The position numbers were made by a program, and so were the translations under genes. From assembly GCF_000179555.1 (NCBI RefSeq), contig NZ_AECZ01000038.1, positions 1-37,659 on the forward strand: DNA of 37,659 nucleotides. Direction: 5' to 3'. Below are positions 6,713 through 15,213 of this stretch, one piece after another; the first letter of the stretch is position 1; every line of letters starts with the position of its first letter. The DNA comes from Solidesulfovibrio fructosivorans JJ]. Lineage in GTDB: Bacteria > Desulfobacterota > Desulfovibrionia > Desulfovibrionales > Desulfovibrionaceae. The notes beneath the pieces were generated by a model. It was not told the DNA's origin. It saw nothing but the letters and a program-made list of their open reading frames with translations, and did not search any database.

Positions 6713-6803
6713 TTCAACTTTAAGCGTTATCCCCGTTGAAAGTTTTTGAAGGGGGTCCAGGGGGAAACTTTTTTCAAAAAGTTTCCCCCTGGCCGCCGGA
6801 GGC
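6713..6803. repeat. Intergenic dyad-plus-hairpin repeat, likely terminator of the cyclase gene
   Basis: A short AACTTT...AAAGTT dyad precedes a 17-bp stem (6757-6773 with 6776-6792, CCAGGGGGAAACTTTTT). It ends in the conserved tail GGCCGCCGGAGGC at 6791-6803. The hairpin lies 32 bases beyond the stop of the leftward cyclase gene and could terminate it. Confidence 0.85.
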
Positions 6804-12374: not shown

Positions 12375-12806
12375 CTACTTCCTCCCCCCGGTCTCGCCGA
12401 GGCGGCGGTCGAAGTCGAATTCCTTGGAGGTCACGTGGGATTCCAGGCGGCCGATGCGCGCCTCGAGATCCTGGGCCCGGTCGCGCACGGTACGGGCCTG
12501 CGCGTCCAGCCGGACGCCGGTGACGTCGATGGTGCGCGGCTCGGCCGCGTATTGCGGTTCAGGGCGAAGGAGCAGCGCGCAGGCCAGATAGATGATCAGC
12601 GCCGGCCAGCCCACGGTGAGAAAGAGCACCACGAAAAAGGCCAGCACCACCCAGGTCGGCAGCCCGAGCCAGCCGGCGAGCCAGGCGAAGCCGCCGCTGA
12701 AAAGGCCTTCGCGGCGGGGACGGCCGCCCCGGTCGAAGCCTGGGCGGGGAGGGCTTACGATGCGGCGGCTGTCCCGCCGTCCGCTACAGCAACCACGGTT
12801 TCTCAT
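12375..12806 (-). CDS. Divergent PspC-like membrane protein (first pair)
   Basis: 143-aa paralogue of the PspC at 11618-12004. The N-terminus is Arg/Gly-rich (CCSGRRDSRR, RPRREGLFSGG). The membrane region (about residues 40-82: FAWLAGWLGLP...LTVGWPALIIYLACALLLRPEP) keeps the PspC topology and the closing RPEP, but lacks the canonical R-x-x-x-x-x-x-x-G-V-C-x-G start. The coiled-coil tail ends RLESHVTSKEFDFDRRL, almost identical to the other copy. The start overlaps the preceding pspB stop by four bases. It may be a specialised stress sensor; a role different from canonical PspC is inference. Confidence 0.8.
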   Translation of the reverse strand: MRNRGCCSGRRDSRRIVSPPRPGFDRGGRPRREGLFSGGFAWLAGWLGLPTWVVLAFFVVLFLTVGWPALIIYLACALLLRPEPQYAAEPRTIDVTGVRLDAQARTVRDRAQDLEARIGRLESHVTSKEFDFDRRLGETGGRK

Positions 12807-13057
12807 GACTTGCCTCGCTTGTCCGCGTCCCGTTCCATCAGGGTCTCCAGATTGCGGACCCGGTCTTCCAGCCGCGACAGGGTGGATTGGACCTCTTCCA
12901 GCAGGGCCACGGCCTCGGTGTCGGCATCGCGTCCGGCCCGCTCCACCCGGTCACGGCGACGGCGCAGGGCGGCGATGGCCGCGATGACCACCACGATGAG
13001 CAGGATTTGCCAGAGGAAATGGCCGCCCCCGTAAAAAAATGCATGATGCCCGTACAC
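12803..13057 (-). CDS. PspB-like membrane protein (first copy)
   Basis: 84-aa PspB-type protein: a glycine/aromatic start (YGHHAFFYGGG), one membrane helix (FLWQILLIVVVIAAIAAL), a basic stop-transfer (RRRRDRV) and a coiled coil with LSRLEDRVRNLETL. I chose the GTG at 13055-13057 because GGAG stands five bases upstream and the membrane helix then starts near residue 13. An in-frame start at 13132 would add 25 charged residues without a ribosome-binding site. It is 198 bp downstream of pspA with a hairpin repeat between, and overlaps the next gene by four bases. Confidence 0.8.
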   Translation of the reverse strand: MYGHHAFFYGGGHFLWQILLIVVVIAAIAALRRRRDRVERAGRDADTEAVALLEEVQSTLSRLEDRVRNLETLMERDADKRGKS

Positions 13058-13165
13058 ATTTTCTCCTTCATGCGCCGGCAACGCCCGCCGGCTGTATCGT
13101 CCCAGGCTGACCTTCCCTTTCCCCCCCGTCAAGAGGTCCGGGCGACATCACGTTCCCGAACCCCC

Positions 13166-13236
13166 TTTGAAAGTTTTTGAAGGGGGGTCCGGGGGGGAAA
13201 CTTTTTGAAAAAAGTTTCCCCCCGGCCGCCGGAGGC
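13166..13236. repeat. Hairpin repeat between pspA and the first pspB
   Basis: Leader GAAAGTTTTTGAAGG, then a stem of about 17 bp (13189-13206 with 13208-13225, one bulged G) and the tail GGCCGCCGGAGGC (13224-13236). It lies just past the pspA stop. It could cause partial termination, giving more pspA than pspBC message. Confidence 0.9.
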
Positions 13237-13255: not shown

Positions 13256-13936
13256 CTATTCGGCCCGGCGGGCCTTGATACGGGCCAGTTCCTGTTCCAC
13301 TTCGTCGTCGGCGGCCAGGCGGTCGAAGCGCGCTTCCAGGGATTCGCCTTCGGCCGGGCGGCGGGTGACGCCGGGCGAACCGGCCAGCTCGGCCTCGGCC
13401 TCCATGCGTTCGATGCGGTTTTCGAATTCCTCGAAGCGCAGCAGGGCCTCGGCGGAATCGGCCCGGGAGATGTCCTCACGCACGCGCTTCTTGCCGGTGG
13501 CCCGCAGATGGCGGTGGAGAAGCGTGCGCTGGCGTTCCTTGGCCGAGGCGAGCTTTTCCTCGAGCCGGCCGATGTCCTCGCGGTAGGCGTCGACCATGCC
13601 GGCGATGGCGGCCTGCTCTTCGGCCAGGGTCGCGGCCCGGCCTTCCAGGGCGCGCTTTTCCATCAGCGCCTCACGGGCCATGTCCTCGCGGCCCTTGTCC
13701 ACGGCCAGCTCGGCCTTCTCTCCCCAGCGGGCGGCGCGTTCCCGCACGGCGTCCAAGCCACGCCCGGACTTGGCGGCCTGGGCCATGGTGCGGGCGCAAT
13801 CGGCCTTGAGCTCGACGAGGGTTTCCTCCATTTCCTGGATCATGAGCCGGATGAGCTTTTCCGGGTCTTCGGCCTTGTCGAGCATGGCGTTGATGTTGGA
13901 ATTGATGATATCCTTGAAGCGACTGAAAATACCCAT
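13256..13936 (-). CDS. pspA: Phage shock protein A (ESCRT-III-like membrane remodeller)
   Basis: Peripheral inner-membrane protein that repairs membrane damage and, when unstressed, binds and inhibits PspF. The 226-aa sequence begins MGIFSRFKDIINSNINAMLDKAEDPEKLIRLMIQEME, the diagnostic amphipathic helix plus first helix. Long coiled-coil helices follow to about residue 190 and a charged C-terminal helix ends the protein. Length is normal. GGAGG lies six bases before the ATG. It is the first gene of the leftward psp operon, read from a near-perfect sigma-54 promoter at 13982-13996 and divergent from pspF. Confidence 0.97.
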   Translation of the reverse strand: MGIFSRFKDIINSNINAMLDKAEDPEKLIRLMIQEMEETLVELKADCARTMAQAAKSGRGLDAVRERAARWGEKAELAVDKGREDMAREALMEKRALEGRAATLAEEQAAIAGMVDAYREDIGRLEEKLASAKERQRTLLHRHLRATGKKRVREDISRADSAEALLRFEEFENRIERMEAEAELAGSPGVTRRPAEGESLEARFDRLAADDEVEQELARIKARRAE

Positions 13937-13981: not shown

Positions 13982-13996
13982 GCAAGGGCCGTGCCA
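13982..13996 (-). promoter_or_regulatory. Sigma-54 promoter of the psp operon
   Basis: On the minus strand TGGCAC (13996-13991), five bases, then TTGC (13985-13982). This is an exact match to the -24/-12 core with correct spacing, giving +1 near 13970 and a leader of about 34 bases to pspA. The divergent neighbour encodes the expected enhancer-binding activator. Confidence 0.92.
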
Positions 13997-14103: not shown

Positions 14104-15213
14104 ATGACAGCCGACACCCCCGGCCTCGTCGAAGCCCTGGGCCAGTCCGACGCCTTCCTGGCCTTCATGGAGCGCGTGGCCGCCGTGGCCCGGGTCGACC
14201 GGCCGGTGGTGCTTGTCGGCGAGCGCGGCAGCGGCAAGGAGCTGGCCGCCGCCCGGCTCCATTTCCACTCCCCACGCTGGGAAGGGCCCTTCGTGGTCGT
14301 CAATCCAGCGGCGCTGCCCCGCACGCTCCTGGAATCCGAACTCTTCGGCCACGAGGCCGGGGCGTTCACCGGAGCGGCCAGACGCCGGCTCGGCCGGTTC
14401 GAGATGGCCGACCAGGGCACGCTTTTCCTCGATGAACTGCAAGCCGCGCCCCGGGCCGTGCAGGAAAAACTGCTGCGGGCCGTGGAATACGGGGCCATCG
14501 AACGCATCGGGGCCGGCGAACCCGTCAATGTGGACGCCCGGATCGTTGCCGCCACCAATGTCGACCCGCGCGAGCTGGTGCGACGCGGCCGGCTCATGCC
14601 GGATCTCCTCGACCGCCTCGCATTTGCCGTGCTCATCGTGCCGCCCCTGCGCAGCCGCCACGGCGACATCGCCTATCTGGCCGAACGCTTCGCCGCCCGG
14701 TTCGCCGCCGAACTCGGCCGGCCCGAGCCGCCCCGCTTCACCGCCGCCGCCCTGGCCGCGCTTGCCGCCCACGACTGGCCCGGCAACATCCGGGAGCTCA
14801 AAAACACCGTGGAGCGGGCCGTGTTCGAGGCCCACGGCCCCCGCATAGATCACGTGGCCATTGACCCCTTTGACCAGGAAGACAGAATCACACCATCCCC
14901 TATTAAAGGGGGCCCGGGGGGAATTATTCCCCCCGGCGGGGTGCAGGGGCGGAGCCCTGCCGGGGTGCAGGGGCAGAGCCCTGTTGGGGTGGTCCAGGAG
15001 GGGCAAAGCCCCTCCTGGCCGCCGGAGGCATCCCTCCCTCCATGGCCCGAAGCCATTGCCGCCTTCGAAACAGACCTGCTGCGCCGGGCGCTGGCGCGCG
15101 CGGGCGGCAACCAGCGCCGCGCGGCCGAGGCCCTGGGGCTCACCTACCACCAGTTCCGGGGGCTTTATCGCAAGTACGCCCAGGCGCTTGACGCCGGACG
15201 CAAAGCCCCGTAG
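14104..15213 (+). CDS. pspF: Sigma-54 enhancer-binding activator PspF, with repeat-derived linker
   Basis: AAA+ transcription activator without an N-terminal receiver or sensor domain, as in E. coli PspF, which is held in check by PspA. Motifs: Walker A GERGSGKE (39-46), the sigma-54-contact loop GAFTGA (86-91), Walker B GTLFLDE (105-111), and an arginine-finger region in [21 protein letters not shown] Fis-type helix-turn-helix lies near the end ([23 protein letters not shown]). The 369-aa length exceeds E. coli PspF by about 44 residues. The excess is residues about 264-310, a Gly/Pro/Gln linker encoded by intergenic-type hairpin repeats (14898-15029). It diverges from pspA and is nine bases upstream of the M16 peptidase gene. 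Confidence 0.93.
14898..15029. repeat. Hairpin repeats captured in frame inside pspF
   Basis: Stem CCGGGGGGAA-TTA-TTCCCCCCGG (14914-14936), two CAGGGGC...GCCCTG units (14944-14959 and about 14968-14983), stem CCAGGAGGGGC-AAA-GCCCCTCCTGG (14994-15018), and the tail GGCCGCCGGAGGC (15017-15029). The same tail closes the intergenic copies at 6803 and 13236. The block keeps the frame and has no stop codon. Confidence 0.9.

Follow-up and report, generated by a model that had tools for sequence, protein, structure and literature searches.

Palindromic repeats inside open reading frames are already known, in the portions of the published accounts drawn on here, from Rickettsia, Wolbachia, REPs and the enterobacterial RU sequences. 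The Rickettsia and Wolbachia palindromic elements (RPE and WPE) are described there as lying in frame within ordinary proteins, with inserts occupying one shared site among orthologues and in some cases belonging to different repeat groups (PMC3767692). The GTAG/CGTC REPs are presented as mainly intergenic hairpins with some intragenic copies, clusters of which encode 43 to 82 amino acids, and different REPs occur at about one site in recB (PMC3733652). The RU small mobile sequences (Delihas 2007) are likewise given as intergenic units of 103-168 bp that are also found in the frames of annotated genes (PMC2759123). For potential intrastrand triplexes, the excerpted class I rule of ITxF allows stems of 6-15, loops of 1-6 and the triads GGC, AAT and TAT, in the order purine/T stem A, loop, purine stem B, loop, pyrimidine stem C, and the same source describes TM-ECO as class II (pyrimidine-purine-purine) and always intergenic in E. 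coli MG1655 (PMC4666352).

The locus considered here lies in 37,659 nucleotides of Solidesulfovibrio fructosivorans JJ (contig NZ_AECZ01000038.1; this whole stretch is called the window), where a block inside pspF belongs to a family of modular hairpin repeats dispersed through the genome, with a similarity beyond chance. As far as those descriptions go, the family resembles the intragenic REPs in consisting mainly of intergenic hairpins with some copies in genes, and RU in that an intergenic repeat unit is found in a reading frame.

A repeat block translated within PspF

The gene pair that contains the block was annotated as follows.

13256..13936, minus strand: pspA (TIGR02977, 243.9 bits, above the cutoff of 242.95)
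13982..13996, minus strand: sigma54-like -24/-12 promoter of pspA, TGGCACGGCCCTTGC, called with a relaxed pattern
14104..15213, plus strand: pspF, sigma54 activator of 369 amino acids with an AAA+ domain and a C-terminal Fis-type HTH

The pspF frame has no internal stops, and its product contains the Pfam domains Sigma54_activat (1.2e-53), AAA_lid_14 and HTH_8 (residues 318-351). TIGR02974 PspF was the best-ranked family for this product, at 414.6 bits against a cutoff of 443.55, and the top nine Foldseek matches of the modelled protein were all PspF AAA domain structures. pspA and pspF form a divergent pair, and the pspA promoter, identified against the sigma54 consensus, was present in 14/14 genus genomes. 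Near pspA, positions 12803-13132 of the window encode a possible PspB, scoring 30.9 bits with TIGR02976, below the cutoff of 51.7.

The block and its two relatives in the window are arranged as follows.

14898..15029, plus strand: linker segment from the repeat, PspF residues 265-309 (in-frame translation, repeat matches, AlphaFold2)
14905..14936, plus strand: head unit, AAAGGGGG followed by a CCGGGGGGAAT hairpin, with a third-tract mirror score of 7/7
14937..14985, plus strand: middle modules, within an imperfect 24-nt direct repeat (D1, D2) with AGGGGCNGAGCCC cores
14986..15018, plus strand: terminal unit, fitting the class I potential intrastrand triplex at 7/7
15019..15029, plus strand: constant tail CCGCCGGAGGC, translated PPEA
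6736..6803, plus strand: sub-type A relative, AT-cored, outside pspF
13167..13236, plus strand: sub-type A relative, directly downstream of pspA (itself on the minus strand)

The sequence-only reading had proposed that a repeat normally found between genes has become, as a stop-free, in-frame block of about 45 residues, the linker joining the AAA+ and DNA-binding domains, and both the in-frame block and its copies elsewhere in the genome bear this out. The best match to the block has an E value of 6e-19 (91% over 67 nt, C17:72042-72108), and its 3' half matches C8:89934-90011 at 1.8e-16. The insert was also said to be rich in Gly, Pro and Gln, which holds for glycine (11) and proline (9) and fails for glutamine, with just 5 of the 45 residues, alongside 5 each of serine and valine. 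The tail CCTGGCCGCCGGAGGC terminates at 15029, and its relatives terminate exactly at 6803 and 13236; contrary to the sequence-only reading, the copies there differ in type, belonging to sub-type A (a AAACTTTTT core), the pspF block being a GC-rich multi-hairpin composite of sub-type B (free of T-tracts and often composed of at least two units). The block is a row of hairpins with a predicted RNA fold of -91 kcal/mol (z -3.9); in the mRNA such hairpins may, as the sequence-only reading suggested, slow translation between the domains. An Rfam scan of the window at gathering scores returned 0 matches, and an origin of the repeat from phage or plasmids was set aside, with 0 exact matches of the terminal-unit pattern (one pattern) to viral contigs and no match of the block to a plasmid collection at E 1e-5.

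The repeat family within and beyond the genome

Across the 4.67 Mb genome (G000) the tail pattern occurs in 100 copies, mostly non-coding, compared with 0 for a reversed control pattern, and by eye a hairpin lies beside 98/100 of them; the remaining two (C32:372 and C34:10835, loci L127 and L130) lie within genes and look, by eye, like chance matches. Tails number 108 to 319 in 13 other genomes of the genus and 0 to 36 in 45 genomes outside it. When 96/100 stretches were read in all three sense frames, 27/32 of sub-type B were open throughout compared with 3/64 of sub-type A, although the two chance sites may sit among the former. This prevalence of open frames in sub-type B fits the observation that both coding copies, in PspF and CobB (described below), are of this type.

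Comparison with G004, of which 1.6 Mb was covered, allowed 33/100 G000 sites to be paired, with the exact tail kept in 26; of the other seven paired sites, at least two retain the element (C3:247399 and C8:47632, where the segment end cuts it or one change is present). The module type differs between the two genomes at some sites, such as C3:245777, C23:20316 and C18:36176. A second repeat with a GCGGCGCATATTTGAAGAATACGCCTTCGC core adjoins several elements in G004 and is missing at the same places in G000; it is also present in the G004 stretch orthologous to the window at about 13150. A third family, of TTGCCGCAATC / GATTGCGGCAA inverted repeats, adjoins several copies in the G000 regions C27:30545 and C23:57035. 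Tails also lie within about 100 bases of contig ends (G000 C2:44, C17:83, C22:33, C59:9717, C62:64 and C66:5824), suggesting that the repeat breaks assemblies.

Mobilisation by a RAYT is unsupported. Y1_Tnp had no match in G004, G010, G011 and G012, nor in G002 (69% complete) and G007 (89% complete), each with more than 100 tails, and the 4357 nt around the single G000 Y1_Tnp gene contain neither the tail nor the unit pattern.

The pspF linker across the genus

Orthologues of pspF were compared from 14 genomes of the genus (apparently Solidesulfovibrio) and 14 others. The tail is present in 14/14 genus genes and 0/14 outside; the 13 genus genes free of ambiguous bases all read it in a single frame. 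Linker DNA matched other G000 repeat copies at E<1e-4 in 14/14 genus and 0/14 out-of-genus genes. The repeat-derived linker is not peculiar to this genome. An ordinary linker shared with distant genera at the protein level, without DNA repeat similarity, had been named as the case that would speak against a repeat origin, and it was absent from these out-of-genus genes. In the core tree the genus groups together (0.999) and a W-PPEAS unit is found on either side of the first split, although support does not exceed 0.1 at several inner nodes and the order within the genus is accordingly loose. The repeat in pspF is not recent, and the likeliest course is that it entered once, early, and then changed.

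Those changes are visible as differences in module content. R-PPEAS units are present twice in G006 and once each in G008 and G013, a second unit is found in G005, G007 and G009, and G000 and G011 each have a head unit. In G004, the nearest relative, the upstream module is a different, inverted composite, matching the reverse of C21:12592 at 97% over 62 nt (E 2e-26); the flanks around the module are about 93% identical between G000 and G004, which makes this swap a recent one. By comparison, the tail codons CCG CCG GAG are the same in 13/13 genes (G002 left out), while elsewhere in pspF single-codon columns account for 0/14 conserved prolines, 0/13 conserved glutamates and, over nine residue types, 21/128 columns, chiefly alanine (8/24) and glycine (5/19). 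The fixation of the tail codons where others vary indicates that the DNA, and not the peptide alone, has been conserved or homogenised.

A second coding copy in CobB

The repeat was also found in cobyrinate a,c-diamide synthase (CobB; NF002204, 507.8 bits), between the ATPase and GATase_3 domains. The CobB linker matched repeats at E<1e-4 by BLAST in 12/13 readable genus genomes and 0/5 outside, and GCCGCCGGAGGC was present within the 200 bases tested in 6/13 readable genus linkers; in G001, where the stretch has a long C run, the repeat was recognised by eye only, and the G007 gene, split over two contigs at the linker, falls outside the 13. The frame of the cobB tail varies by species, giving AAGG or PPEA, which argues for repeated change and against one conserved peptide. 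In G013 (L329) the two halves of the gene, on either side of the repeat, do not share a frame, and the length of a G-run in the repeat differs from that of G008, whether through slippage, phase variation or assembly error; this interruption at the repeat means that the frame is not always kept. Another copy, L040 (G000 C9:5911-5983), falls within the N-terminal portion of the CobB open frame, in either a 5' untranslated region or an N-terminal extension.

Translated copies are uncommon: with 41/93 spanning ORFs scanned, PspF and CobB are the only ones with Pfam support on both sides among the 98 hairpin-bearing G000 tails, so that any generalisation rests on these two loci. The screen used spanning ORFs and Pfam, a codon-score classifier being too weak, and comprised 93 spanning ORFs at 60/100 sites, of which 41 were scanned, including pspF; coding copies in unscanned ORFs or Pfam-less proteins could escape it. 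Five further loci with the repeat ahead of a domain, L019 (TPM), L021 (UmuD-like), L026, L100 and L103, were judged to be upstream copies or start-codon artefacts. In the 1.6 Mb of G004, 44 tail sites gave 29 spanning ORFs, of which 15, pspF not among them, were scanned; the sole hit, in an aminotransferase whose domain lies about 120 residues beyond the repeat, was judged an artefact. A further 23 BLAST-matched places in G000 gave 22 spanning ORFs, of which 10 were scanned, and a partial methyltransferase hit among these places was not counted.

A mirrored third tract in each unit

In each unit, a purine tract upstream of the hairpin is the mirror image of the purine arm of the stem. Among the 91/100 G000 sites that could be parsed, 91% of positions were triplet-compatible (G.GC, A.AT or T.AT) in the true register, compared with 68% and 71% one base off. 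The terminal B units of G000 and of the 1.6 Mb of G004 were tested in tail orientation (121/144 tails parsed), giving 26 distinct combinations, which are not fully independent because the two genomes are close relatives. Compatibility was 0.921, whereas the permutations averaged 0.775 and peaked at 0.865; 0/5000 reached the observed value, compared with 56/5000 and 2061/5000 in the off-by-one registers. At position 2, an A in the arm was accompanied by A or T in the third tract in 14/16 cases and a G by G in 10/10; agreement at position 4 was 9/9 and 16/17. For A units the observed value was 0.882 against a mean of 0.823, reached by 1/5000 permutations. A permutation set that mixed both strands and unrelated hairpins, in which GC-only units gave 0.418 against a mean of 0.376 and a maximum of 0.405, was set aside in favour of the tail-oriented one.

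The terminal unit in the window consists of the tracts GGGGTGG (14986-14992), TCCA, GGAGGGG (14997-15003), CAAAG and CCCCTCC (15009-15015), followed by TGG, and conforms to the class I potential intrastrand triplex rule (at most one mismatch, loops of 1-6) at 7/7 with the loops TCCA and CAAAG. Mirror scores of forward units that start in CC range from 4/6 to 7/7 in the pspF genes of other genus members, and G002, with ambiguous bases, scores 2/7; the inverted G004 module read forward scores 1/7, as expected from its inversion. At the level of sequence, then, the third purine tract mirrors and covaries with the stem in the manner of class I potential intrastrand triplexes. Set beside the partial published description, the pspF unit is like ITxF class I in fitting the search rule, as a potential triplex, and unlike TM-ECO (CCCTCNCCC then two GGGNGAGGG tracts) in being ordered purine-purine-pyrimidine, with a coding copy in pspF. 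This covariation provides sequence evidence for a triplex-type constraint on a bacterial repeat family, and whether such repeats fold in cells becomes directly testable.

How the linkers may have arisen and what they may do

In the AlphaFold2 model of PspF (21 sequences; mean pLDDT 86.2), pLDDT falls below 50 at residues 1-9, 264-299 and 301-308, the latter two coinciding almost exactly with the insert. This predicted disorder, and the fact that sequence is not conserved outside the repeat, suggest that the insert most likely acts passively, as a flexible spacer that joins the AAA+ ring to the DNA-binding domain, although a binding role for the recurring WPPEAS motif is conceivable. The account that we consider probable is that translation-permissive modules of a dispersed repeat occupy, and keep rewriting, permissive linkers in PspF and CobB, with the insert acting as a passive spacer. 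Under this account a unit would comprise a purine third tract, TCC and a hairpin with a mirroring purine arm, the last unit ending in the tail GGCCGCCGGAGGC, and the GC-rich modules, being mostly stop-free, could be read through. Entry of such a unit into the pspF linker would most likely predate the radiation of the genus, and the unit would have survived because the linker tolerates disordered Gly/Pro/Ser-rich sequence. The species comparison shows that modules were then gained, swapped for others and inverted at this position, presumably via copying or recombination among repeats, with selection presumably acting mainly for an open reading frame; the CobB linker would have followed the same course. 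We entertain more tentatively, from the sequence patterns, a stronger version in which triplex-constrained repeats swap between genomic sites and catch ORFs on the way, so that DNA structure more than protein function may rewrite the PspF and CobB linkers genus-wide. If true, this would be a natural source of variation in the linkers of core proteins.

The same observations bear on several other explanations. The repeat may instead be kept in pspF for a role at the DNA or RNA level, as a triplex or hairpin acting in transcription, replication or recombination, with the peptide as a by-product; the conservation of the tail codons beyond protein need, the third-tract covariation and the strong fold all point this way, but copy-to-copy homogenisation accounts equally well for the tail identity, the repeat is missing from out-of-genus pspF, and stem and loop vary by species along with the mirror scores, making this an unlikely explanation overall. 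That the resemblance is a coincidence, in an ordinary Gly/Pro-rich linker, would accord with out-of-genus linkers that are mutually unrelated and, by eye, without predicted order motifs, but has a negligible probability and is refuted at the DNA level by the E value of 6e-19 to genomic copies, the tail in 14/14 genes and the identical codons. Nor is pspF at all likely to be a decaying gene whose frame is open by chance: the G002 frame is broken, though at ambiguous bases, while in 13/13 clean genus genomes the frame stays open across the repeat and on to a conserved HTH, and the pspA promoter persists in all 14.

The remaining explanation, advanced in the sequence-only reading, is that the insert makes the tether longer and changes enhancer reach, and the predicted disorder of the insert would suit such a tether. 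Linker length, from WPGN to the NQR motif and with G002 and G027 left out, had a median of 110 (range 84-125) in the genus (n=13) and 97 (range 84-113) outside it (n=13; p=0.033). The two ranges overlap, with genus linkers also at the short end: G010 and G012 measure just 84 and 86 despite each carrying a unit. An excess of 44 residues over the length of E. coli PspF had been taken as matching the insert, but is weak evidence because repeat-free orthologues have overlapping linker lengths. The pspA promoter lies 95-108 nt from the start of pspF, and the trend linking this distance to linker length (rho 0.54, p=0.056, n=13) ignores kinship and rests largely on one clade, the short distances (95-98) being those of G001, G003 and G010, and also G002; G012 combines its short linker with the common distance of 107. 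Neither the lengthening nor the enhancer effect is established by these data, and although a length effect is still conceivable given the slightly longer genus linkers and the trend, we regard tuning of enhancer reach as improbable. The passive, repeatedly rewritten spacer thus remains our preferred account.

Comparison with known systems

Among the titles found in searches of open-licence papers, none concerned this repeat or PspF or CobB linkers derived from repeats. By comparison with the partial descriptions of RPE and WPE, the pspF repeat is alike in being palindromic and inside an ORF whose frame is intact, and is set apart by its GC-rich modular units, mirrored third tract, constant tail and occurrence in a genus of sulfate reducers. 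It differs from the GTAG/CGTC REPs, as these are portrayed in the text cited, in having no such terminal tag and in its lack of association with a RAYT: GTAG or CGTC on either strand was found in 5/100 copies over a 12-nt stretch (the last 4 nt of the tail and 8 beyond) and in 22/100 within 30 nt to the 5' side. Within the literature searched, what appears to be new is the mirrored, covarying third tract, the host group and the tracking of two linkers across a genus. These results add to the known cases of coding palindromic repeats a genus for which many genomes can be compared, and in which the turnover of the PspF and CobB linkers is traceable species by species and mostly non-coding repeats feed protein evolution.
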